NCBI RefSeq assembly: GCF_007859315.1
Contig: NZ_VOHA01000029.1
Span: forward strand, 1 to 64,000
Direction: 5' to 3'
DNA: 64,000 bases
Source: Reyranella sp. CPCC 100927
GTDB lineage: Bacteria; Pseudomonadota; Alphaproteobacteria; Reyranellales; Reyranellaceae
The notes under the pieces are model-generated. The model saw only the letters and a list, made by a program, of their open reading frames with translations. It searched no databases and had not been told where the DNA came from. Both the position numbers and the translations under genes were made by a program. The stretch's first letter is position 1, and each line of letters opens with the position of its first letter. Positions 8,433 to 40,066 of this stretch are shown piece after piece.

Positions 8433-9407
8433 TCAATGCTCCTTCTCGTACGGCACGCCGATCGCCTTGGGGGCGACGGCGCGGCCGATGAAGCCGGCCA
8501 GCAGGATCACGGTCAGCACGTAGGGCAGTACCTGGATGAACTGCACCGGCACCTCGCCGATGCCCGGCACGCGTACGCCCTGCAGGCGGATCGCCACGGC
8601 ATCGAGCAGGCCGAACATCAGGCAGGCGCCCAGGGCCGGGAACGGCCGCCACTTGCCGAAGATCATGGCGGCGAGCGCGATATAGCCCTGGCCCGCCGTC
8701 ATGTCGCGGCTGAAGGCGGCGTTCTGCGCGATCGAGAGGTAGGCGCCGGCGATGCCGGTGAACAGGCCGCAGATCAGCACGGCGCGATAGCGCAGCCAGG
8801 CGACGGAGATGCCGGCGGCGTCGACCGCCAGCGGCACCTCGCCCACCGCGCGCAGGCGCAGGCCGAAGCGCGTGCGGGTCAGCACCCACCAGGTGATGGG
8901 TACGATCAAGAGCGCCACGTAGACGAAGAGGTTGTGGCCGCCGATCAGGTCGCCCCAGATCCGGCCCAGCACCGGCACGTCGGCCAGCGCCTGCGTGCCG
9001 GGCAAGGTGATCGGCATGAAGCGCGCCTCGGGCGGCAGCGCCGGCGTCTGCCCGCCGCGCTGGAACCAGGCCATGCCGAACACGATGGTGAGACCGGATA
9101 CCAGGATGTTGATGGCGACGCCGCTCACCACCTGGTTGCCGCGGTGGGTGATGCAGGCGAAGCCGTGCAGCAGCGCCAGCGCCTCGGCGACCAGGATGGC
9201 GGCGCCCAGCCCGAGCCAGGCCGAGCCGGTGACCGACGCCGTGGCGGCGGCCACGAAGGCGGCCGCCAGCATCTTGCCCTCGAGCCCGATGTCGATCAGC
9301 CCGCTGCGCTCGGAGAACAGCCCGCCCATGGCGCACAGGATCAGCGGTGTCGCCACCCGCAACGTGGCCGACAGGATCAGCACCGCAAAGGTGATCGCCT
9401 CTTCCAT
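8433..9407 (-). CDS. ABC importer permease (BMP/nucleoside type), second subunit
   Basis: A 324-residue inner-membrane permease of the branched-chain/ribose-type superfamily (BPD_transp_2), corresponding to the smaller permease of nucleoside importers such as NupQ/YufQ. Typical motifs are GLFSERSGLIDIGLEGKML near residue 30 and VGEVPLAVDAAGISV in the cytoplasmic coupling region near residue 200. Eight to nine hydrophobic segments are visible. The start at 9407 (MEEAITFAVL) is where the first membrane helix begins; the upstream codons come from a repeat. It should pair with the permease encoded at 9571-10701, using the ATPase at 10850-12403. Confidence 0.9.
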   Translation of the reverse strand: MEEAITFAVLILSATLRVATPLILCAMGGLFSERSGLIDIGLEGKMLAAAFVAAATASVTGSAWLGLGAAILVAEALALLHGFACITHRGNQVVSGVAINILVSGLTIVFGMAWFQRGGQTPALPPEARFMPITLPGTQALADVPVLGRIWGDLIGGHNLFVYVALLIVPITWWVLTRTRFGLRLRAVGEVPLAVDAAGISVAWLRYRAVLICGLFTGIAGAYLSIAQNAAFSRDMTAGQGYIALAAMIFGKWRPFPALGACLMFGLLDAVAIRLQGVRVPGIGEVPVQFIQVLPYVLTVILLAGFIGRAVAPKAIGVPYEKEH

Positions 9408-29659: not shown

Positions 29660-29872
29660 TGCTTCCGGTATCAGAGCATCGAGCGCAAATCTATCAGCCT
29701 GCGCGTCGAACGCATCGCCGTCATTACTGCCTTCCTCATCGAAGAAATCAAAGCGCAGACCGTCGAAGAGATCGCGCGATACGATGACTTTATCAATAGC
29801 CCGCTAGGTCAGCTATTCCAGAGCGGCATGGCGAACTCGCTAATTGACAAGGTAGCGCGCGCGGGGGCGTAG
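29660..29872 (+). pseudogene. Coding-like fragment without a start codon
   Basis: An open frame of 70 codons reads ...IERKSISLRVERIAVITAFL, IEEIKAQTVEEIARYDDFIN and SPLGQLFQSGMANSL up to a TAG. Its composition is protein-like (regular helix pattern), but there is no ATG/GTG at its head and a TAA lies just upstream. It overlaps the end of the convergent citrate-synthase-like gene by 33 bases. I do not recognise the family; it may be the 3' remnant of a lost gene. Confidence 0.3.
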
Positions 29873-31156
29873 CATTACGCCGGCCAACCTCTGCTCCATC
29901 ACGTGCGCGATCCATCCTGCGCAGCGCGCGATGGTCAGGATGGCGCCTGCAGACCGATAGGGAAGCTGCAGCGCGTGACAGAGCACCACGAGGCCGGTTT
30001 CGACACTGGGCCCTATCTTGAATGCCTCGGCAGCCTCCTCGAGAAAGGTAACGATGTCGATCGTACGGTCCGGATTGATGCTCAGATTGCGGGCCACACC
30101 CAGCAGGTGCTCGGCCCGGGGATCGCCGTTCGGGTAGAGCGGATGGTTGAAGCCCGGTATCGCGCTTCCCGACTTCGCCATTTCAGCCAGCCGATCTCGA
30201 CGGGTGCTCCTGGCGCGAGCCGTCGTCAGCAGATCCTCCACTTTGTCGCAGGCGCGGCGGATGCGCGATCCGCTATGGGCGCTCAAGGCCGACAGGATGC
30301 AGAAATAGAGGTTGGCGCCGCTCGAGGCGGCGAGGCGCGCTGCGACCGTCTGCGGCGTGAGCTCGTGGTCGGCAAGCAGCACCAAGGCGGTGTTCACCGC
30401 TGCCGTCGTCTCCGCGGTTGCGCGCGCGCCGGCGCCAGCCACGATACGGGCAGCGACCGCGAGCCCGCCGCCGGATGCGGACGCGTCCAGGGCGATGCTC
30501 TTGCGAGAGCGGGCCAGGAAGCGCATGCAGGCCGGCAGGCCCATCAGCAGAGCGCGAGCGGCAATGACCGTGTTGCCGTCGCGCAGGTCGTCACCGCCCG
30601 ACGGCCGCGCGACGAGTGACATGACGAACAGCGAGAACAACTTGACGATGTCGGGCTGCGAGGCGTCGACCTCGGCCGCCGCGATGAGCTTGTCCATCGC
30701 GACCGCCGCGGCGGTGCCGGGCCATGCGCCCTGTTCCTCCATCCATGCGCCCGACCACAGCAGCTCGGCAACACTCTCGAAGCTCTGGCTGTGCCGTACG
30801 AAGTCGAGCGCAGGGCGACCGCGGTAGGCCGGACCCGCCGGCGTTATCGTCGTGATCGACGTTTGCACGATGGGTTCCGACCATCTCGGCGCGCCGCCCT
30901 TGTAGAGTCCGCCTTCGGCCTTCGCATGGCCCCGTGCGCGCAGCCGTTCGACGTCCTCGCGCGAGTAGAGGAAGCCATGTCGCTTGTCCTGGCCGATCGA
31001 ATGGATCCAGCCGCGACTGACGTAAGCATAGAGCGTCTGCGGCTTGATGCGCAGAAGGTGCGCCGCTTCCTTCGCCGAGAGAAAGCTCTTGGCGTCGTGT
31101 GCACGCGCCGCCGCCGCGACCTTGGAAGGCTTTCTGGTCATGTCAAAAGAAGCCAT
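29840..31156 (-). CDS. Citrate-synthase-like protein with N-terminal HTH domain
   Basis: A 438-residue protein. Residues about 22-80 form a MerR/excisionase-type helix-turn-helix (FLSAKEAAHLLRIKPQTLYAYVSRGWIHSI, FLYSREDVERLRARG). The rest is a citrate-synthase fold with catalytic histidines in LLADHELTP and GFNHPLYPNGDPRA. The usual catalytic Asp motif (PNxDF) reads GPSVETG, with Glu in place of Asp. Such fusions may make a 2-methylcitrate- or citrate-like product, or act as acyl-CoA-sensing regulators; neither can be shown here. It is divergent from the 31.3-40.1 kb catabolic cluster. Neither start (31156, or 31141) has a good ribosome binding site. Confidence 0.85.
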   Translation of the reverse strand: MASFDMTRKPSKVAAAARAHDAKSFLSAKEAAHLLRIKPQTLYAYVSRGWIHSIGQDKRHGFLYSREDVERLRARGHAKAEGGLYKGGAPRWSEPIVQTSITTITPAGPAYRGRPALDFVRHSQSFESVAELLWSGAWMEEQGAWPGTAAAVAMDKLIAAAEVDASQPDIVKLFSLFVMSLVARPSGGDDLRDGNTVIAARALLMGLPACMRFLARSRKSIALDASASGGGLAVAARIVAGAGARATAETTAAVNTALVLLADHELTPQTVAARLAASSGANLYFCILSALSAHSGSRIRRACDKVEDLLTTARARSTRRDRLAEMAKSGSAIPGFNHPLYPNGDPRAEHLLGVARNLSINPDRTIDIVTFLEEAAEAFKIGPSVETGLVVLCHALQLPYRSAGAILTIARCAGWIAHVMEQRLAGVMLRPRARYLVN

Positions 31157-31176: not shown

Positions 31177-31272
31177 GTTGATCCACAAGGCGTCCACCCC
31201 TAGCCTCGACCCTGTGCACATCGGACGGTGCGGCGGATCGTCCGGCCGGAACAACGGGAGGGCAGCGTAGCC

Positions 31273-32397
31273 ATGTCGATCATCGACGCCGATTCACACG
31301 TCATCGAATCCCAGGAAACCTGGCAGTACCTCGATCCGAAGTTCGCGAAGCGGCGGCCGGTGCCGGTTGCCGTGCCGGCCGACACCTCGTTCCTCGACTG
31401 GAACACGTTCTGGATTATCGATCGGCAGGTCCGCCATTTCGGCGCCACGCCGATCGAAGGCAACGTGATGGCCGGCCGCAAGTCCTACTCGCCTGACGTG
31501 CAGCAGATCACCGACGTCAAGGCGCGGCTCGCGGCAATGGACAGGATGGGCGTCGCCAAGCAGCTGGTGCATCCCTCGTTCACGCTGTCGACTCTCACAG
31601 AGGACCCGGAGCTCGAGGCCGCGCTGTTCCAGAGCTACAACACCTTCATGTCGAATGCGTGCGCGGCATCGGGCGGCCGCATTTTCTTCAATGCCGTGAT
31701 CCCGTATCGCCGGCCGGAGCAAGCGGTGGCCGAGCTCCGCCGCCTCGACAGGATGCCGGGCATGGCGAGCGTGCTGGTGCGCGGGCTCGAGTGGGACAAG
31801 CCGATCGACGATCCCAGCCACTACCCCGTCTTCGCCGAGGCCGAGCGACTTGGCCTGCCGATGGTGGTCCATCTCGGCCTCGGATCGCCCTCGATGTACC
31901 GCATGTTCGACGGTATGGCGCACCCGGTTGCCGAGAAGAAGACCTTCTATCCGGCGCGCTCGCGGCGTCTGCTGTCGACGCTGACGGTGCAGTACGCCTT
32001 CTACAACCTGATGGAAAGCACGCTCATCGACGACTTCCCCAAGCTCAAGTGGGTCTTCCTCGAGGGCGGCGGCTGCACCTGGATGGTGGGCGCGGTGCGC
32101 ACCATCGAGCGCAGCGGCAAGCCCCGTGTCCTCGACCACTTCGAGGCCGGCCGCGTGCTGGTGGGCTGCGAGCCCGACGACGACATTCCCTATGCCTCCG
32201 GAGTCCTGGGTGAGCACGCGCTGCTGGTATCGAGCGACATGCCGCATTTCGACGAGGCGGCGCACGACAGCATCGCCGAGGAGTACGAGGAGCGCGGCGA
32301 CCTTTCGCCGGAACTGTTGAAGATGATGTTCACGCAGAATGCCGAGCGCGTCTTCGACTTCGGTCGTGTCGCCGCCAGGACAGCCGTGCCGGCCTGA
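31273..32397 (+). CDS. ACMSD-like amidohydrolase (amidohydrolase_2 family)
   Basis: A 374-residue TIM-barrel metal-dependent hydrolase or decarboxylase. It opens with IIDADSHVIES (metal-binding D-x-D-x-H, residues 5-9) and has MVVHLGLGSP with a metal-ligand His near residue 200, LEGGGCTWM in place of the usual E-x-G, and SSDMPHFD with the late Asp near 322. The family includes aminocarboxymuconate-semialdehyde decarboxylase and gamma-resorcylate decarboxylase, both acting on aromatic-pathway intermediates. ATG at 31273 has GGGAGGGCAG upstream. It is the first gene of the operon, followed four bases after its stop by the DszB-like gene. Confidence 0.88.
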   Translation: MSIIDADSHVIESQETWQYLDPKFAKRRPVPVAVPADTSFLDWNTFWIIDRQVRHFGATPIEGNVMAGRKSYSPDVQQITDVKARLAAMDRMGVAKQLVHPSFTLSTLTEDPELEAALFQSYNTFMSNACAASGGRIFFNAVIPYRRPEQAVAELRRLDRMPGMASVLVRGLEWDKPIDDPSHYPVFAEAERLGLPMVVHLGLGSPSMYRMFDGMAHPVAEKKTFYPARSRRLLSTLTVQYAFYNLMESTLIDDFPKLKWVFLEGGGCTWMVGAVRTIERSGKPRVLDHFEAGRVLVGCEPDDDIPYASGVLGEHALLVSSDMPHFDEAAHDSIAEEYEERGDLSPELLKMMFTQNAERVFDFGRVAARTAVPA

Positions 32398-32401
32398 AGC
32401 C

Positions 32402-33445
32402 ATGCGGATCTGGTACACGCGCTGTCCCCTGCCGACCGCGTCGAGCATCGCGATCGAGCGTGGCATGCTCGATGACGAATTCCGGGCCGACGGTATCGTC
32501 GTGCAGTCGCTCAACGCGTCGAGCGACATGGCGGTGCGCGAGGCGCACTACAACCACGGCCAGACCAATTTGTTCCGGCAAGGCGGCAACATTCCGCCGA
32601 TCTGGAGCCGGTCACGCGGCGCCGACACGGTAGTGGTCGCCACCAACTGGATCGACGAGTACCAGGCGATTGTGGCGCTGCCGTCCTCGGGGATACAGAA
32701 TGCCGCCGACCTGCGCGGCAAGCGGCTCGGGATGCCGCGACGCCTGAACGAGCAGATCGACTACTGGCGTGCCATGTGCCTGCGCGGATACCTCGCTGCG
32801 TTGGAGATTGCCGGCCTCGAGCCGAACGACGTCGAGTTCGTCGACCTCCCGATCGACGAAAAGCAGATCCCGACGGGCGGCGCATCGCAACGTGGCACCT
32901 TGTGGCGCGGCGCCAACCGCGCCCGCAGGCAAAGCCGCGAGGCGCTCGCCCTGATCCGCGGCGAGATCGACGCGATCTATACCGCCGGTGCGCCGGGCGC
33001 CCAGCTTTCGTCGTTCATGGGGGCCTCCACTGTCGTCGATCTCGGCGCGCATGCGGACTCGGGCTCGCGTGTCAACAACCAGGTTCCCACCGTCCTGACC
33101 GTCGACGGCGAGCTCGCCCGCTCCGCACCCGAGACGGTCGCGCGCTATCTCGCGGCGCTCATGCAGGCGGCGCGCTGGGCGCACGAGCACGAGGCGGAGA
33201 CGCTCGGCATCGTGGGCGGCGACGTCGGCGCAACGCCGGAATGGGTGACGGCGGCCTACGGCGCCGAGGTACATGATCGACTTGCCCTGGAACTCGACGA
33301 GCGCTCGATCGCGGCGGTCGCGGCACAGAAGGCATTCCTGCTCGGGAACGGCTTCATCGATAAGGATTTCGACGCCGGCGCATGGATCGATCCGCGCCCG
33401 CTCGAACTGGCACGAGGAATGGACCATGAACGTAGGCTTGGCTGA
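32402..33445 (+). CDS. DszB-like protein, putative aromatic sulfinate desulfinase
   Basis: A 347-residue protein with the periplasmic-binding-protein fold shared by sulfonate-binding proteins and DszB (2'-hydroxybiphenyl-2-sulfinate desulfinase). It has no signal peptide, so should be cytoplasmic, as expected for an enzyme. From memory of Rhodococcus DszB, its catalytic Cys27, His60 and Arg70 align with Cys8 (WYTRCPLPTAS against TYSNCPVPNAL), His49 and Arg59 here. The His-to-Arg distance is identical (10), and GGxIPP follows the Arg in both. IRGEIDAIYT and the end (FLLGNGF..DFDAGAWIDP) also match DszB. It overlaps the next gene by 20 bases. The alternative is a binding protein that lost its signal. 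Confidence 0.72.
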   Translation: MRIWYTRCPLPTASSIAIERGMLDDEFRADGIVVQSLNASSDMAVREAHYNHGQTNLFRQGGNIPPIWSRSRGADTVVVATNWIDEYQAIVALPSSGIQNAADLRGKRLGMPRRLNEQIDYWRAMCLRGYLAALEIAGLEPNDVEFVDLPIDEKQIPTGGASQRGTLWRGANRARRQSREALALIRGEIDAIYTAGAPGAQLSSFMGASTVVDLGAHADSGSRVNNQVPTVLTVDGELARSAPETVARYLAALMQAARWAHEHEAETLGIVGGDVGATPEWVTAAYGAEVHDRLALELDERSIAAVAAQKAFLLGNGFIDKDFDAGAWIDPRPLELARGMDHERRLG

Positions 33446-35069
33446 GCGTCCCGAGGCGGCGATGGCGCGGCGCGCCGTGGCGAGGGGCGGCATGGTCGCG
33501 ACCGCCCATCCGCTCGCGAGCCGGGTCGGGCTCGACGTGCTTGCCCGAGGTGGCAATGCGATGGACGCCGCGATCGCGGCGGTGGCGGTGCTCGGCGTAG
33601 TGCAGCCCATGATGAGCGGGCTGGGCGGCGACAGCTTCATCCTGATCCGGTCCGGACGTACCGGTGCGATACGCTCGGTCAATGCCAGCGGCCCCGCGCC
33701 CCATGGCCAATCGCTCGAATGGGCCAGGAAAGCCGGGCTGGCCAGGCTGCCCGATCGCGGCATGCTCTCGGTATCCGTACCGGGGGCGGTGGCCGCGATG
33801 TGCGCAGCGCACCAGCAGTTCGGCAGCGGCCGGCATAGTCTCGCGGCGCTGCTGCAGCCGGCCATTGGTCATGCAACCGACGGCGTGGCCCTGACGCGGT
33901 CGGTGGCGCGCTTCTTCGCGCTGAACGAAGCTGTCCTCGCTGGGTCCGAATCGGCCCGCGCTGCGTACCTGAAGAACGGCAAGGCGCCAGCGGAAGGCGA
34001 AGTGCTGAGCCAGCCGGAGCTCGCGAACACATTGGAGGCCGTGGCCGCCGGCGGAGCCGATGCGTTCTATCGCGGCGAGTTCGCCCGCCGCCTGGTTGCG
34101 CACAGCGCCGCGACCGGCGGCCTGTTCTCGCTCGACGACCTTGCCGAGTACCAGTGCGAGACCGTCGAGCCGCTGTCGTTGGCGCTCGGACAAGGCAGGA
34201 TCTACACCAATCCGCCGGTCGGGCAGGGCATCGTGCTGCTGGAGGCGCTCGGCATCCTCGAACGCTGCACACCGATGGATCGCAGCAGCGAGGTCGTGCA
34301 GGTGCACAGGATGATCGAGGCGCTGAAGCTCGCCTTCCTCGACCGCAATCGCCACCTCGGCGATCCGCGCTTCGTGGCCAACCCGATCGACCGCCTGCTG
34401 AGCGATTCCCACCTGCGCGGGCACGCCGGGCGGATTGATGACCGGCGGGCCATGACGTCGGTCGAGGAGAGCTGGTCCTCCTTCGGCGAAGGCGACACGA
34501 CGTGCCTGGCGACGGCGGACGAGTCCGGCAACGTCGTCGCCTACATTTCCAGCCTGTCGACGCCGTTTGGCGCGGCCGAGGTGATCGACGGGACGGGCGT
34601 GCTGATGAACAACCGGGCCGGCCGGGGCTTCACGCTCGATCCGACGGCGCCGAACTGCCTCGCCGGCGGCAAGCGCACGATGTCGACCTTGCACGTCTAC
34701 ATGGTCTGCGACGACGACGGCCTGAAACTTGCTGGCGGAACATCCGGCGGCGACGGGCAACCGCAGTGGAATTTGCAGATACTGGACGCTGTGCTGAATG
34801 GCGGGCGTGACCTCCGGGAGGCGATCGACCAGCCGCGCTGGGAACTGATGCCGGGAACCGATCCGGTCAATCTCGGCCAGCCCTTCGAAATCCGAATGGA
34901 TGGTCGCTTTGCATCGTCGCTGGCGGGTTTGGGCGAACTGGGCCATCGCATCAGTGACAAGCCGCTGGGCATGCTCGGCGCCGCCCAGGCGATTGCCGTG
35001 AGCGGGGACGGGACGTTGGTCGGGGCCGCCGATCCCCGCGCCGATGGATGCGCGCTGGGGCTCGACTGA
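33426..35069 (+). CDS. Gamma-glutamyltransferase family protein, cytoplasmic
   Basis: A 547-residue Ntn-hydrolase of the GGT family: MVATAHPLASRVGLDVLARGGNAMDAAIAA at the start, MSGLGGDSFILI, then the autoprocessing site GDTTCLATAD, with Thr358 as the likely nucleophile, and MNNRAGRGF, PNCLAGGKRTMSTLHV and GGTSGGDGQPQ. No signal peptide precedes it, unlike classical periplasmic GGT, so it resembles cytoplasmic members that remove gamma-glutamyl groups from pathway intermediates or glutathione conjugates. Its start overlaps the DszB-like gene by 20 bases and has GAGGAATGGACC as ribosome binding site. A zeta GST in the same operon makes a glutathione link plausible. Confidence 0.88.
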   Translation: MNVGLAERPEAAMARRAVARGGMVATAHPLASRVGLDVLARGGNAMDAAIAAVAVLGVVQPMMSGLGGDSFILIRSGRTGAIRSVNASGPAPHGQSLEWARKAGLARLPDRGMLSVSVPGAVAAMCAAHQQFGSGRHSLAALLQPAIGHATDGVALTRSVARFFALNEAVLAGSESARAAYLKNGKAPAEGEVLSQPELANTLEAVAAGGADAFYRGEFARRLVAHSAATGGLFSLDDLAEYQCETVEPLSLALGQGRIYTNPPVGQGIVLLEALGILERCTPMDRSSEVVQVHRMIEALKLAFLDRNRHLGDPRFVANPIDRLLSDSHLRGHAGRIDDRRAMTSVEESWSSFGEGDTTCLATADESGNVVAYISSLSTPFGAAEVIDGTGVLMNNRAGRGFTLDPTAPNCLAGGKRTMSTLHVYMVCDDDGLKLAGGTSGGDGQPQWNLQILDAVLNGGRDLREAIDQPRWELMPGTDPVNLGQPFEIRMDGRFASSLAGLGELGHRISDKPLGMLGAAQAIAVSGDGTLVGAADPRADGCALGLD

Positions 35070-35086
35070 CGGGAAGGGAGGACTTC

Positions 35087-36163
35087 ATGGGGCACGAGAG
35101 GGCAGATGGGAGCAGGACGATCCGGATGGCACGCCGTACGTTCATGACGGCGGCTCCAGTCCTTCTTGCTGCAGGCACGAGTGGCGCGTGGGCCCAGGCG
35201 CCGACGATCGTCAGGGTGGGCGTGCTCAACAGCCTGTCCGAGATCATCATCTTCGTGGCCATGGAGAAGGGCTACTTCAAGGAGGAAGGGCTCGACATCA
35301 AGCTGGAGCGCTTCTCCAACACCGCCGACATGATCGCTCCGTTGAGCAGCGGCCAGATCGACGTCGCCTCCGGCGCGCCCACGCTCGGCTTGTTCAACGG
35401 GTCCCTGCGCGGCCTGCCGCTCAAGCTGGTGGCCGACAAGGGCCGCAACTCCAAGGGGCACGGCTTCAACGCGATCGTCGTCCGAAAGGACCTGGTCGAG
35501 TCCGGGAAGGTCAAGTCCGCGGCCGACCTCAAGGGGCTCAGGATCGCGACCGCGTCCCGGCATTCGCCGATGGAGCAGCAACTCGAGATGGCCCTGCAGA
35601 AGGTCGGCCTCAGCAACAAGGACGTCGAGATCCAGAACCTCGACTTCCCCGACATGATCACCGCCCTGGATAACAAGGCCGTTGACGGAGCGCTGATGAT
35701 CGAGCCGTTCGTCGCGATCGCGGCGAAGCGCGGCGTCGGCGTGCGTTTCATGGGTGTCGATGACATTGCGCCCGACTTCCAGATCGCCGGCGTCATCTAT
35801 GGTCCCGACTTCGTGGTCAAGCAGCCGGAGGCCGCGAAGCGCTGGATGGTCGCCTATGTCCGGGCCATCCGCGACTATCTCGCTGCGGTCGGCAGCAAGG
35901 CGGGCAAGGATAAGCTGATCGTGGTGCTCAAGAAGTATGCGTCTGGCACCACCGACGCCAGCGTGCTCGAGAATGCGGTGTTTCCGGGCTTCGATCCCGA
36001 CGGCTACCTGAACCTCAAGACCATAGAGGCCAGCATCGACTGGTATGCCACCCGCGGCCTGCTCAAGGCCAAGCCGAAGCTCACCGACCTTGCCGACTAT
36101 CAGTACCTGAACTACGCCCTGGAACGCCTGGGTCGGCGCGAACGGGCGCAGAAGGTCCAGTAG
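35087..36163 (+). CDS. ABC substrate-binding protein, sulfonate/nitrate (SsuA/NMT1) type
   Basis: A 358-residue periplasmic binding protein. The N-terminus has a twin-arginine-like motif (ARRTFMTAAP, Arg16-Arg17), then a hydrophobic stretch and cleavage at AWAQA, so export may use Tat. The mature part has the SsuA/TauA-family pattern: GVLNSLSEIIIFVAMEKGYFKEEGLDIKL, GQIDVASGAPTLGLFNG, SAADLKGLRIAT, DNKAVDGALMIEPF. The GGGAGG ribosome binding site sits six bases before ATG at 35087. The ATPase and permease of the same system are encoded at 37315 and 38135. The substrate is unknown; context points to an aromatic acid or sulfonate. Confidence 0.9.
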   Translation: MGHERADGSRTIRMARRTFMTAAPVLLAAGTSGAWAQAPTIVRVGVLNSLSEIIIFVAMEKGYFKEEGLDIKLERFSNTADMIAPLSSGQIDVASGAPTLGLFNGSLRGLPLKLVADKGRNSKGHGFNAIVVRKDLVESGKVKSAADLKGLRIATASRHSPMEQQLEMALQKVGLSNKDVEIQNLDFPDMITALDNKAVDGALMIEPFVAIAAKRGVGVRFMGVDDIAPDFQIAGVIYGPDFVVKQPEAAKRWMVAYVRAIRDYLAAVGSKAGKDKLIVVLKKYASGTTDASVLENAVFPGFDPDGYLNLKTIEASIDWYATRGLLKAKPKLTDLADYQYLNYALERLGRRERAQKVQ

Positions 36164-36188: not shown

Positions 36189-37295
36189 ATGAGTCGAACC
36201 AACGCGAAGCCCGCGTTCCAGGCCGATACGCTGGACCGTCTCCATGAGGACATGGAGAAGGCGCGGCTGGTGCCGACGTGGAAGTACGTATCAGAGTTCG
36301 TCTCGGCCAAGCCGAAGGTGACCTACCGGCCGTACCTCTGGCGATGGAGCGAGGTGCTACAGTATCTGTACCGTGCCGGCGAGCTGATCACGCCGGAGCG
36401 CGGCGCCGAGCGGCGCTCGATGGAGCACACCAATCCCGACCTGCGCGCCCAATACACGACATCGCACACCATCGCGACGGCTGTGCAGCTCGTGAAGGCG
36501 GGAGAGTCCGCGCCGTCGCATCGGCACATGGCGGGTGCCATCCGCTTTGCCGCGAGCAGCCGCGGCGGCCGAGTGTTCACCAGAGTCGACGGCGAGGCCC
36601 TGACGATGGAGGAGAACGACCTGCTGCTGACGCCATCGGGCATGTGGCACGAGCATGTCAACGACACCGAGCACGACATCGTCTGGCTGGACGCGCTGGA
36701 CTATCCACTGGTCAACCTGCTTCAGGCGAGCTGGTTCGAGCCGTCCGATCCGGCCAAGCCTGTCCCCACCTATGCCGACGGCCATACGGCGGCGCGCCTG
36801 GGCCACGGCCGGCCCGTCGGCTGGGGCGACAACCCCGCCGGAACGCCGCGCATGCGCTATGCCTGGAGCGACATGCATGCCGCGCTTGAGCGGTTGTCCG
36901 GGGAGGAGGGCAGCCCCTATGACGGGGTGATCCTCGAATACGTCAATCCGCTCACCTCGGGGCCGACCCTGCCGACCATGTCGTGCCGCGCGCAGCTGCT
37001 GCGGCCGGGTGAGCACACGCGGGCCCACCGTTCGCTGTCGAGCACGATCTACTTCGTCATCGAAGGCGAGGGGACCAGCGTCGTCAACGGCGTGCGCTTC
37101 GATTGGGCCAAGGGCGACGTCTTTGTCGTGCCGAACTGGCATTGGCACGAGCACGACAACCATGGAACAAGACCGGCATTCCTGTTCTCCGTGACCGATC
37201 AGCCCGTCATGGAGAAGCTCGGCATGTTCCGCGAGGAAGCCCATCCGGACGGCGACGGCCGGCAGGCCATCGTTGGCTCATTTCAGCCGGTCTAG
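36189..37295 (+). CDS. Gentisate 1,2-dioxygenase-like bicupin dioxygenase
   Basis: A 368-residue two-cupin protein of the gentisate/1-hydroxy-2-naphthoate dioxygenase family. The N-terminal cupin carries the Fe(II) ligands in APSHRHMAGAIRFA (two His near residue 115) and GMWHEHVND (third His near 156). The C-terminal cupin has EHTRAHRSLSSTIYFVIEGEG and NWHWHEHDN, so a second complete His set is visible. RPYLWRWSEV near residue 45 is family-typical. The reaction would be ring cleavage between a hydroxyl and an adjacent carboxyl-bearing carbon. The zeta GST encoded downstream is the usual partner of gentisate cleavage. The true substrate may be an amino- or sulfo-analogue. Confidence 0.88.
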   Translation: MSRTNAKPAFQADTLDRLHEDMEKARLVPTWKYVSEFVSAKPKVTYRPYLWRWSEVLQYLYRAGELITPERGAERRSMEHTNPDLRAQYTTSHTIATAVQLVKAGESAPSHRHMAGAIRFAASSRGGRVFTRVDGEALTMEENDLLLTPSGMWHEHVNDTEHDIVWLDALDYPLVNLLQASWFEPSDPAKPVPTYADGHTAARLGHGRPVGWGDNPAGTPRMRYAWSDMHAALERLSGEEGSPYDGVILEYVNPLTSGPTLPTMSCRAQLLRPGEHTRAHRSLSSTIYFVIEGEGTSVVNGVRFDWAKGDVFVVPNWHWHEHDNHGTRPAFLFSVTDQPVMEKLGMFREEAHPDGDGRQAIVGSFQPV

Positions 37296-37314
37296 GCGTA
37301 CGCAGACCCAGCCG

Positions 37315-38148
37315 ATGCCTCCCAACACAAAAAAGGTGCTGTCGGTCGTCGAGCCGGCGGCCATTGCCGGCCCTGGCCGCAACACGGTCATTCGCATCGC
37401 TGGGCTGAGCAAGCGGTTCCTCACCGACCGGGGCGAGTTCGAGGCGCTGCGCGGCATCGACCTGGCGATAGGAGGGGGCGAGTTCGTCTGCCTGCTCGGC
37501 GCCTCGGGATGCGGCAAGACGACGTTGCTGCGCATCCTCGCAGGACTCGATCGGCACACCGATGGCGTCGTCGAGATCAGGGCTGCGCGGTCGGGGGAGC
37601 CGCTCACATCGGTCGTGTTCCAGGAGCATTCGATCTTCCCGTGGATGACCGTGTGGGACAACGTCGCCTATGGCCTTCGCGCGCGCAGGCTCGACAAAGC
37701 AACCGTGCGCGAGCGCGTCGACTTCTTCGTGCACAAGGTTGGCCTGACGAGCTTCGCGCGGTCCCTCCCGCACCAGCTTTCGGGCGGCATGAAGCAGCGC
37801 GTGTCGATCGCGCGGGCCTTCGCCAACGACCCCGAGATCCTCCTGATGGACGAGCCGTTCTCGGCGCTCGACGAGCAGAACCGCGCGATCCTGCAGGAAG
37901 AACTGCTGCGCATCTGGAGCGATACCCGCAAGACCGTGGTCTTCATAACCCATTCGATCGACGAGGCAGTGTTCCTGGCCGATCGCGTGGTCGTCCTTGG
38001 AGGTCCGCCCGGTCACGTCGTCATGGATGCGAGAGTGCCTTTCGCACGGCCGCGCAATGCCTATGAATTGCGTGCCTTGCCGGAATTCGGAGCCCTGGTT
38101 GCGGACTTTGGCGCCCACATCAAGGCGGGTATGAATGGCCAACGCTAA
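37315..38148 (+). CDS. ABC importer ATPase, SsuB/TauB type
   Basis: A 277-residue nucleotide-binding subunit with Walker A LLGASGCGKTTLL, Q-loop VFQEHSIFPWMTV, signature LSGGMKQRVSIARAF, Walker B ILLMDEPFSALDEQNR and switch His in FITHSIDEAVFLADR. It matches the nitrate/sulfonate/taurine family. ATG at 37315 begins 20 bases after the dioxygenase stop. The final 14 bases overlap the permease gene, so the two are translationally coupled. Confidence 0.93.
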   Translation: MPPNTKKVLSVVEPAAIAGPGRNTVIRIAGLSKRFLTDRGEFEALRGIDLAIGGGEFVCLLGASGCGKTTLLRILAGLDRHTDGVVEIRAARSGEPLTSVVFQEHSIFPWMTVWDNVAYGLRARRLDKATVRERVDFFVHKVGLTSFARSLPHQLSGGMKQRVSIARAFANDPEILLMDEPFSALDEQNRAILQEELLRIWSDTRKTVVFITHSIDEAVFLADRVVVLGGPPGHVVMDARVPFARPRNAYELRALPEFGALVADFGAHIKAGMNGQR

Positions 38149-38989
38149 TCGCAACAGGGCGGCAAGCGACGCGGACGGCCTCGTCCGTCTCCCGGCCGAC
38201 CCGGACATCGGCCAATCGGTCCGGCGGCGCGCGCGCCTGGAAAAGGCGCTCGGCATCCTGAGCCCGTTGCTGATCCTGGTGCTCTGGGAGATTGTCGTCC
38301 GTGCCGGGCTGCTCGACGCGCGCATCGTGCCCGCGCCCAGCATGATTCTCGAGACGTTCAAGTCGCTGATCGAGAGCGGCGAGCTGGCGCGCCATGTCGG
38401 CGTTTCGTTGACGCGGGTTTTCGTCGGGCTGCTGCTCGGGGCGATGCCGGGCCTCGTCGTCGGCACGCTGATGGGGCTCTCGCCAATGACGCGCGCCATC
38501 GTCAGCCCGATCGTCGCCTCGTTGTATCCCATCCCCAAGATCGCGATCTTTCCGCTGGTCATGGCCATCTTTGGCATCGGCGAGCTCAGCAAGTACGTGC
38601 TGGTCGCTATCGCAGTCTTCTTTTTCATGGCCATCAATTCGTTTGCCGGTGTGGCCAACGTCGATCGGATCTACTGGGACGTCGGCCGCAGCTTCGGCGT
38701 TTCGCGGTCCCGCGCGATCCTGACGATCGCCCTGCCGGGCGCGCTGCCGATGATCCTCGCAGGTCTTCGCCTCAGCCTTGGCGTGTCGCTGCTGGTGCTG
38801 GTCGGTGCGGAGTTCGTCGGCGCCAAGAGCGGCATCGGCTACCTGGTGTGGAATTCGTGGCAGGTGTTTGACGTCGAGTCGATGTACGCCGGCATCGTCG
38901 TCATCGGCCTGCTCGGCTGGGCCTTCTTCGCCGTGCTGGACGAGCTGGAGCGGCGGCTAGTGCCGTGGGGCCCCGGCAATCGGCGTTAG
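38135..38989 (+). CDS. ABC importer permease, SsuC/TauC type
   Basis: A 284-residue inner-membrane permease with about six helices (first at LGILSPLLILVLWEIVVRAGL). The binding-protein-dependent transport motif reads VGRSFGVSRSRAILTIALPGALPMILAGLRLSLG (EAA-type loop, about 190-215). The periplasmic-proximal PAPSMILETF segment after the first helix is typical of SsuC/NitT families. It completes the importer made with the binding protein at 35087 and the ATPase just upstream. Confidence 0.92.
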   Translation: MANANRNRAASDADGLVRLPADPDIGQSVRRRARLEKALGILSPLLILVLWEIVVRAGLLDARIVPAPSMILETFKSLIESGELARHVGVSLTRVFVGLLLGAMPGLVVGTLMGLSPMTRAIVSPIVASLYPIPKIAIFPLVMAIFGIGELSKYVLVAIAVFFFMAINSFAGVANVDRIYWDVGRSFGVSRSRAILTIALPGALPMILAGLRLSLGVSLLVLVGAEFVGAKSGIGYLVWNSWQVFDVESMYAGIVVIGLLGWAFFAVLDELERRLVPWGPGNRR

Positions 38990-38996
38990 CGCGGAG

Positions 38997-39650
38997 ATGG
39001 ATATGTTCAAGCTGTTCACCTACTGGCGGTCGTCGACGGCCTATCGCGTCCGCATCGCGATGAACCTCAAGAGGCTTGCCTACGAGCCGGTGTACGTCAG
39101 CATCCCGAAGCTGGAACACAAGGCGCAACCCTACCTGGCCGTGAACCCGCAGGGCCTCGTCCCCGCGCTGGTCGAGGACGGCAAGGTGGTGGCGCAGTCG
39201 CTCGCCATCCTGGAATACCTCGAAGAGCGGACGCCGCAGCCGGCGCTGCTGCCCGAGGGGCGATATGAACGGGCCTACGTGCGGGCGCTGACCCAGATCG
39301 TTGGTTGCGAGATCCATCCGCTCAACAATGTGCGTGTGCTCAAATACCTGGAACAGCGGCTGCAGGTGTCGGCCGACGCCAAGCTGGCGTGGTACCGCGA
39401 CTGGATGGCAGAAGGCCTGGCATCGTACGAGGCGACCCTGCAGGCGTGTGCGATGGCGGGCGACTTCTGCTACGGCGACCAGGTGACATTGGCCGACGTC
39501 TGCCTGGTGCCGCAGATTTACAATGCGCGGCGTTTTTCCTGCCCGCTCGACGCCTATCCGCGAACGATGGCGATCGCCAGCCGCTGCGAACGGCTCGAGC
39601 CATTCATCCGCGCCTTCCCGGACACCCAGGAAGACGCCGTTGTTTCTTGA
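38997..39650 (+). CDS. Zeta-class GST, maleylpyruvate/maleylacetoacetate isomerase type
   Basis: A 217-residue glutathione-dependent cis-trans isomerase: LFTYWRSSTAYRVRIAMNLK contains the catalytic Ser-Ser motif of zeta GSTs (usually SSCSYR; Cys is replaced by Thr), then VNPQGLVPAL, SLAILEYLEE, the CEIHPLNNVRVLKYL block and the C-terminal GDQVTLADVCLVPQIYNARRF. It should isomerise maleylpyruvate-like ring-cleavage products to the fumaryl form in the cytoplasm. It begins seven bases after the permease stop; ATG at 39003 is an alternative start. No fumarylpyruvate hydrolase gene is in the operon. Confidence 0.88.
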   Translation: MDMFKLFTYWRSSTAYRVRIAMNLKRLAYEPVYVSIPKLEHKAQPYLAVNPQGLVPALVEDGKVVAQSLAILEYLEERTPQPALLPEGRYERAYVRALTQIVGCEIHPLNNVRVLKYLEQRLQVSADAKLAWYRDWMAEGLASYEATLQACAMAGDFCYGDQVTLADVCLVPQIYNARRFSCPLDAYPRTMAIASRCERLEPFIRAFPDTQEDAVVS

Positions 39651-39667
39651 GTGAGGAGACGGACAGA

Positions 39668-40066
39668 GTGAAAAGACAGAGAATCTACAGCGAGCAAGTT
39701 GCCGAGCCGAAGCCGCGCCTGTGGTCGAACTGCCTGCGGGTGGGCGATGTGGCCTATGTTTCCGGCATGACGGCGCGGGCCAAGGACGGCGAAACCGTGC
39801 TCGGGGAAGAGTACGAGCAGTCGAAGGTGATCTTCGGCAAGATCAGGGACCTCGTCGAGGCCGCGGGCGGCAAGATGGACGATGTCGTGAAAATGACCAT
39901 CTTCGTCACCAACATCGCGAAGAACACCGAAGTGTGGCGCGCCCGCAGCGAATTCTTCAACGGCGACTTCCCGGCCTGCAGCCTGGTCGAGGTGAGCAAT
40001 CTCGCCAAGCCGGAGATCCTCGTGGAGATCGAGGCGATCGCCCATCTCGGCAGCAGCTCGCCTTGA
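39668..40066 (+). CDS. RidA/YjgF-family protein
   Basis: A 132-residue single-domain Rid protein: VAYVSGMTARAKDGETVLG, QSKVIFGKIRDLVEAAGGKMDDVVKMTIFVTNI and the C-terminal AKPEILVEIEAIA. The position that holds the imine-binding Arg in RidA (usually ARPE or similar) is Lys here, so the activity may differ. Rid proteins hydrolyse reactive enamines/imines, and one branch deaminates 2-aminomuconate in aromatic degradation. As last gene of the operon it hints at an amino-substituted intermediate. GTG at 39668 with GGAG upstream is the start; no upstream ATG fits. Confidence 0.85.
   Translation: MKRQRIYSEQVAEPKPRLWSNCLRVGDVAYVSGMTARAKDGETVLGEEYEQSKVIFGKIRDLVEAAGGKMDDVVKMTIFVTNIAKNTEVWRARSEFFNGDFPACSLVEVSNLAKPEILVEIEAIAHLGSSSP

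Follow-up and report, generated by a model that had tools for sequence, protein, structure and literature searches.

Does the open reading frame (ORF) at 32402..33445 on the + strand of the window, a 64,000-nucleotide stretch of Reyranella sp. CPCC 100927 (contig NZ_VOHA01000029.1, positions 1 to 64,000), encode an ABC importer binding protein or an enzyme related to the desulfinase DszB? The original prediction favored an enzyme: it expected the 347-amino acid product to be named a sulfonate-binding protein, saw no signal peptide in it and placed three catalytic residues of DszB at Cys8, His49 and Arg59. Such a name is the probable outcome of automatic annotation: Pfam gave only a partial NMT1 match for the DszB-like protein, and its relatives are liable to carry names of ABC substrate-binding proteins. 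Our analysis describes a candidate cytosolic enzyme, by its homology to DszB and its residues C8, H49, R59, G62 and T6, and we lean towards an aryl-sulfinate desulfinase of the DszB superfamily that would feed ring cleavage.

We compared the protein with DszB (PDB 2de2, 2de3) and with binding proteins of the SsuA/TauA type. A HMMER alignment paired Cys8, His49, Arg59 and Gly62 with Cys27, His60, Arg70 and Gly73 of DszB, and Thr6 with Ser25, the hydroxyl residue two positions before the catalytic Cys. The spacing of 10 between His49 and Arg59 equals that between H60 and R70, and RQGGNIPP aligned with RFGGEIPP of DszB; the residue numbers, the identical spacing and the shared GGxIPP of the RxGGxIPP motif were thus as first proposed. 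When all PDB sequences were searched, DszB (2de2) was the top match (E 1.5e-19, residues 3-334), and binding proteins in the same single-sequence search reached E 0.014 or worse. A profile of the subclade gave DszB at 2.3e-30 and SsuA at 1.1e-5. Judged on these sequence scores, the match to DszB is not a chance one. Congruently, substrate-bound DszB was the best whole-length fold match of a structure model of the window protein, above the other folds. The NCBIfam SsuA model TIGR01728 scored the DszB-like protein at 78.3 bits, below its cut-off of 163.5, and the operon's own binding protein likewise fell below it (99.6). The SsuA/TauA proteins (PF09084/TIGR01728) share with the window protein a periplasmic-binding fold and the probable automatic annotation, but the binding-protein rows compared lack the Cys, His and Arg, and the tested ones have a leader.

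Next, we looked at the start of the protein. Its ATG lies 4 bases past the stop of an upstream PF04909 gene; if translation began further upstream, at the in-frame start 32339, the two genes would overlap. Judged by hydropathy only (best 12-residue mean over the first 40 residues), a hydrophobic leader was not evident: the value was 0.83, while the operon's own binding protein reached 1.75 and three exported homologues reached 1.85-2.31. This agrees with the predicted absence of a signal peptide and extends the likeness to DszB, itself without a leader. Across the family a leader has little room, because in 148 rows no more than 22 residues separate a Met from the Cys motif. By alignment and hydropathy, its nearest relatives retain the Cys and have no evident leader, unlike the signal-bearing, Cys-less relatives that would have counted against the original prediction. 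An ordinary binding protein was set aside on the missing leader and the retained catalytic residues.

To survey the family we searched 398 genomes of its phylum and plasmids for relatives and scanned a genome collection. Matches at E <=1e-8 occurred in 12 of the 398 genomes (the window genome included, and some of them only binding proteins). A family match was present in 99 plasmid records, 50 of which were from Sinorhizobium; the scan, whose patterns contained the Cys and Arg motifs, confirmed at least 566 stretches. Of 149 aligned rows, 138 scored above 100 bits; of these, 117 had Cys, His and Arg, 18 had Ser in place of the Cys, two had the Cys without the His, and one was partial. None of eight binding-protein rows carried any of the three residues (leaders were assessed by eye in these rows, and by hydropathy as well in three). 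Cys8, His49 and Arg59 were among 12 invariant columns in an alignment of 43 hand-chosen rows, with a plasmid DszB and without the Cys-to-Ser paralogues, and were invariant across five aligned sequences of the subclade. The family mostly keeps the site of DszB.

The 18 rows with Ser for Cys had Ile at the His position in 11 cases and Ser in one, and occupied three places of the tree. Each shares its locus with another family copy, which has the Cys in all cases where its row was kept; the Cys partners of L007-L009 had been removed as duplicates and were seen as L016-L018. Since the C27S variant of DszB is reported to be inactive (PMC6100217), these copies may be non-catalytic, perhaps binding or regulatory partners. 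Examples of such paralogues beside Cys copies are L037:2944-4278 (-), L073:6220-7419 (-), L005:356-1408 (-) and L059:10099-11178 (-).

Phylogenetic analysis separated the family and DszB from the binding proteins, with a Shimodaira-Hasegawa-like approximate likelihood ratio test (SH-aLRT) support of 99 in a tree of 94 rows and a support of 98 for the same split in the 43-row tree. The latter excludes L033, a very long-branched row that groups with DszB in the 94-row tree, and it rejected the topology placing DszB outside the family plus its nearest binding proteins (approximately unbiased test, p-AU 0.0035). By these sequence trees the window protein groups with DszB to the exclusion of the binding proteins. 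DszB forms a sister branch, long and represented by two rows; the clade of the window protein (support 98) also contains homologues from L031, a Burkholderiales genome, and from the Sneathiella genomes L036 and L040. The view that the window protein is a DszB ortholog was set aside, as it has no dszA/dszC neighbours and lies on a branch distinct from that of DszB.

We then examined the surrounding genes, which the original prediction had described as an aromatic-type catabolic operon with a separate exported binding protein; the ring-cleavage genes and the leader of that protein (35048-36163) bear this out. All the operon genes are on the + strand. Upstream of the DszB-like gene lies the PF04909 'amidohydrolase', a candidate dinuclear oxygenase by Pfam, PDB profile matches and its ligand set (31228..32397, likely start 31273). 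A gamma-glutamyltransferase-family hydrolase (33426..35069; PF01019 E 9.2e-129, nearest PDB 2nlz) follows, overlapping the DszB-like gene by 20 bp, and after it come the SsuA/NMT1-type binding protein of an ABC importer (35048..36163; Pfam, NCBIfam and hydropathy), with its leader if the start is 35126, and a 5-aminosalicylate 1,2-dioxygenase of the MabB type (36189..37295; NCBIfam equivalog NF049978, 674.3 bits, cut-off 650). The importer is completed by an ATPase (37273..38148) and a TauC/SsuC-type permease (38135..38989), both identified with Pfam and NCBIfam. The last genes encode the maleylacetoacetate/maleylpyruvate isomerase MaiA (38997..39650; TIGR01262, 261 bits, cut-off 171) and a RidA-family enamine/imine deaminase with a tentative start codon (39662..40066; PF01042). 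Importers of the TauC/SsuC-type ABC kind also carry other anions and the enzymes indicate a ring pathway, so we dropped the reading of the operon as sulfonate import only.

We know of no DszB-like step in the mab (3-aminobenzoate) pathway. That pathway, from Comamonas sp. QT12 (PMC9584955), resembles the window operon in its 5-aminosalicylate 1,2-dioxygenase and a proposed deaminase step, and differs in that the words 'amidohydrolase' and 'glutamyl' are absent from the text of that paper.

The closest counterpart of the window protein in a named species, 96% identical, is in Reyranella soli, where the operon is conserved (L026, again as G413/L110), as it is in G428/L109. With only 3 of the 76 genomes of the order containing it, its distribution is patchy. 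RidA and a homogentisate dioxygenase (HmgA) that scored over its cut-off come after the PF04909/DszB-like pair in both Sneathiella loci and in the Burkholderiales one. The Sneathiella loci additionally hold an ABC ATPase, a permease, a binding protein and a fumarylacetoacetase. MaiA is present in L036 and, on the opposite strand about 5 kb away, in L031; it was not seen in the L040 locus, nor was an ABC homologue in the L031 locus. RidA directly follows the DszB-like gene in all three (L036:10031-10432, L040:10032-10433 and L031:10026-10427), though their ring enzyme is HmgA, for which we know of no deamination step. This placement of RidA is a hint that an upstream step releases an enamine, 2-aminoacrylate for example.

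To compare neighbourhoods across the family we scanned 80 loci, the best of the at least 566 confirmed stretches. A PF04909 gene lay within 400 bp of the DszB-like gene in all four loci of the clade and a homologue of it was found nowhere in any of the 76 other loci (blastp 1e-10, half-length cover, a search that distant PF04909 members would escape). Conversely, a gene of the LLM or acyl-CoA-dehydrogenase family, the families of DszA and DszC, occurred within 2.5 kb in 52 of the 76 other loci, which are not independent (many are close rhizobial relatives) and where identity to the reference was only 24-28% for most LLM matches, and in none of the four clade loci; as a baseline, no such neighbours were found in 318 kb (two contigs of one genome). 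Among three annotated family loci, two have a sulfurtransferase and one has a cysteine dioxygenase and a cystathionine lyase. Ten proteins tested from the neighbourhoods of the sister branch L027-L035 showed no common theme. In L023 (Sinorhizobium meliloti pSymA) and L105 (Devosia), an acyl-CoA-dehydrogenase-family gene lies between two DszB-like genes, with an NtaA/DmoA-type monooxygenase downstream, an arrangement that by its predicted gene families is a dsz-like organosulfur cluster.

What, then, could the conserved PF04909 partner do? Searched against PDB, its clade profile matched best the dinuclear oxygenases 8sm8 (3.8e-14), PtmU3 (1.8e-11), SfbO (1.8e-10) and 6m1w chain B (5.7e-10), which we take to be AibH2; 5-carboxyvanillate decarboxylase (4.1e-9) came behind these oxygenases, and the uncharacterised 4dzi was among the matches. 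With a wider profile, 8sm9 (3.1e-30), PtmU3 (5.7e-29) and 8sm8 (3.5e-28) again preceded the first decarboxylase (5.8e-22), and AibH2 (4.7e-19) fell below the decarboxylases. The single window sequence gave decarboxylases and oxygenases intermixed. Seven residues (D7, H9, H200, E264, D322, H325 and D327) are invariant in four aligned clade sequences; they correspond in order to the reported AibH2 ligands Asp25, His27, His211, Glu265, Asp337 and His340, plus Asp342, an acidic residue whose conservation is reported to be confined to binuclear centres (PMC7782822). H200, E264, D322, H325 and D327 were aligned in the clade-profile search, and D7 and H9 were placed through the shared DxH motif, through PtmU3, whose match there is weak, and through the structural alignment, which starts by setting model residue 1 against residue 19 of AibH2. 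More distant PF04909 relatives retain the ligands, with Glu replacing D327 in some (one fragment row has no N-terminus). By these alignments the protein carries the predicted metal ligands of the dinuclear (Mn/Fe or Fe2) oxygenases, and it is probably a dinuclear oxygenase that would prepare the sulfinate.

The likeness of this protein to AibH2, PtmU3 and SfbO lies in those ligands and in the best PDB sequence matches. It differs in its gene context and in a fold score that also fits PF04909 decarboxylases. We found no Rieske gene on the window contig (28 Rieske matches lie elsewhere in the genome), whereas 90% of AibH2-like genes are reported to adjoin a small Rieske protein (PMC10401708). 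The fold scores of its structure model do not separate dinuclear oxygenases from decarboxylases; the top structural match was DitZ, and a literature search on DitZ returned only unrelated papers. SfbO is described as hydroxylating a C-H bond next to nitrogen with release of an aldehyde and with ascorbate as reductant (PMC10811679).

Because the DszB-like gene sits in a ring-cleaving operon, its product probably acts on an aromatic compound, removing its sulfur ahead of ring breakdown. In such a pathway the PF04909 oxygenase, with which the desulfinase is perhaps paired, would yield an aryl sulfinate; Cys8, its thiolate stabilised by His49, would donate a proton to the ring carbon and expel SO2/sulfite while Arg59 and Gly62 hold the sulfinate. 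The resulting amino- or hydroxy-aromatic acid would be opened by the MabB-type dioxygenase (HmgA in the relatives) and the cleavage product processed further by RidA and MaiA. Beyond the observed homology, fold, active-site conservation, clade and conserved gene pair of the DszB-like protein, we infer the sulfinate as leaving group, the order of the steps and the role of the oxygenase.

Several observations weigh against a desulfinase of this kind. The window protein is only 26-27% identical to DszB, and the exported binding protein of L010 scored 75.5 bits, about level with DszB at 73.7 (plasmid DszB, 83.7). Because the scan patterns contained the Cys and Arg motifs, the 69 rows formed by the scan match itself at base 9001 all have the triad; only 47 of the remaining 68 do (a group that includes some scan matches from truncated contigs). 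Arg59 alone says little, because the RXGG arginine (Arg70) is described as general in DszB homologues and assumed to be structural (PMC6100217). Neither a flavin monooxygenase nor a sulfite gene was found among the window operon genes annotated with Pfam and NCBIfam, and 24 of the 76 other loci, including most of L027-L035, showed no LLM or acyl-CoA-dehydrogenase gene within 2.5 kb. Moreover, decarboxylases and other enzymes also share the binding-protein fold. The foremost rival is a cytosolic enzyme of this fold that acts on an aromatic acid by different chemistry. It would most likely be a protolytic decarboxylase, transferring the proton to the ring carbon in the same way but releasing CO2 in place of SO2, with Arg59 and His49 binding the carboxylate. 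We regard this rival as unlikely but worth serious attention.

A desulfinase that scavenges sulfur from a small or promiscuous sulfonate or sulfinate, co-transcribed with the ring genes but outside their pathway, would fit the many relatives in clusters resembling sulfur acquisition and the SsuA/DszB protein peg4802, found in the proteome of strain IGTS8 and classed under sulfur acquisition (PMC8557817). It is at odds with the pairing with ring cleavage in Reyranella relatives, two Sneathiella genomes and one Burkholderiales genome, and with window operon genes that abut or overlap; we consider it improbable. We give very little credence to a degenerate, non-catalytic binding protein without signal peptide, acting as ligand sensor or decoy: the fold and the Cys-less paralogues beside Cys copies in other genomes speak for it, and against it stand the invariant subclade residues, the little room for a leader and an operon that already holds a binding protein with one.

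The aryl-sulfinate desulfinase that we favor retains from the original prediction the DszB-type protein and the catalytic Cys, His and Arg, and the fold match to DszB agrees with it. The further claim that a desulfinase outside the 4S dibenzothiophene pathway would be new went too far. PLP (pyridoxal phosphate)-dependent desulfination is known (PMC6100217), and the bdsABC operon of Gordonia terrae C-6 has been published, and its desulfinase gene shows little homology to the dsz genes; E. coli extracts with bdsABC turned benzothiophene into o-hydroxystyrene (PMC3868597; bdsABC is also treated in PMC11852219). As described there, its bdsA is alike in being a DszB-like desulfinase gene outside dibenzothiophene, in an operon that worked in these extracts, and unlike in its pairing with flavin-type monooxygenases and its use for a sulfur source. 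Among the matches listed from open-licence PMC papers, none dealt with a DszB-like gene that lies in a ring-cleavage operon next to a gene of the dinuclear-oxygenase type; what looks new is this setting of ring cleavage with a dinuclear-oxygenase-type neighbour.

A bolder and rather doubtful proposal is that the locus encodes a new kind of module for aromatic desulfurisation, in which a dinuclear-metal (Mn/Fe or Fe2) amidohydrolase-type oxygenase would replace the 4S flavin monooxygenases, the sulfinate would be removed and MabB or HmgA would cleave the product directly. Hydroxylation next to the sulfur would break an aryl sulfone or thioether derivative down to the aryl sulfinate. One candidate role is the salvage of cysteine or glutathione adducts of quinone forms of the ring-cleavage substrates; it would explain the glutamyltransferase-family gene of the Reyranella relatives and, through disposal of 2-aminoacrylate, for RidA. 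Our results suggest a route, not yet described, by which carbon-sulfur bonds on aromatic rings would be cleaved. They also outline a large family whose members risk being named 'ABC transporter substrate-binding protein' and of which one subclade is tied to aromatic catabolism. For DszB, described as slow and inhibited by its product in biological fuel desulfurisation (PMC12168087), the family offers many natural variants, Cys-to-Ser ones included.

Finally, three further loci deserve mention. Divergent from the window operon lies a gene for a protein with HTH_17 and citrate-synthase domains (29840..31156, -; Pfam); this fusion is 91-96% identical beside the operon in L026 and L109 and is possibly the operon regulator, sensing a CoA ester or carboxylate. 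A distant PF04909 relative accompanies an Acyl-CoA_dh_2 gene at L143:6169-9439, with a molybdenum hydroxylase further off, in a genome with no DszB-like match at E 1e-70. In one Sneathiella genome, the region upstream of the PF04909/DszB-like pair (L040:388-5709) holds a VanA-type Rieske oxygenase, a ferredoxin-type reductase and genes recognised by eye as those of a TRAP transporter.
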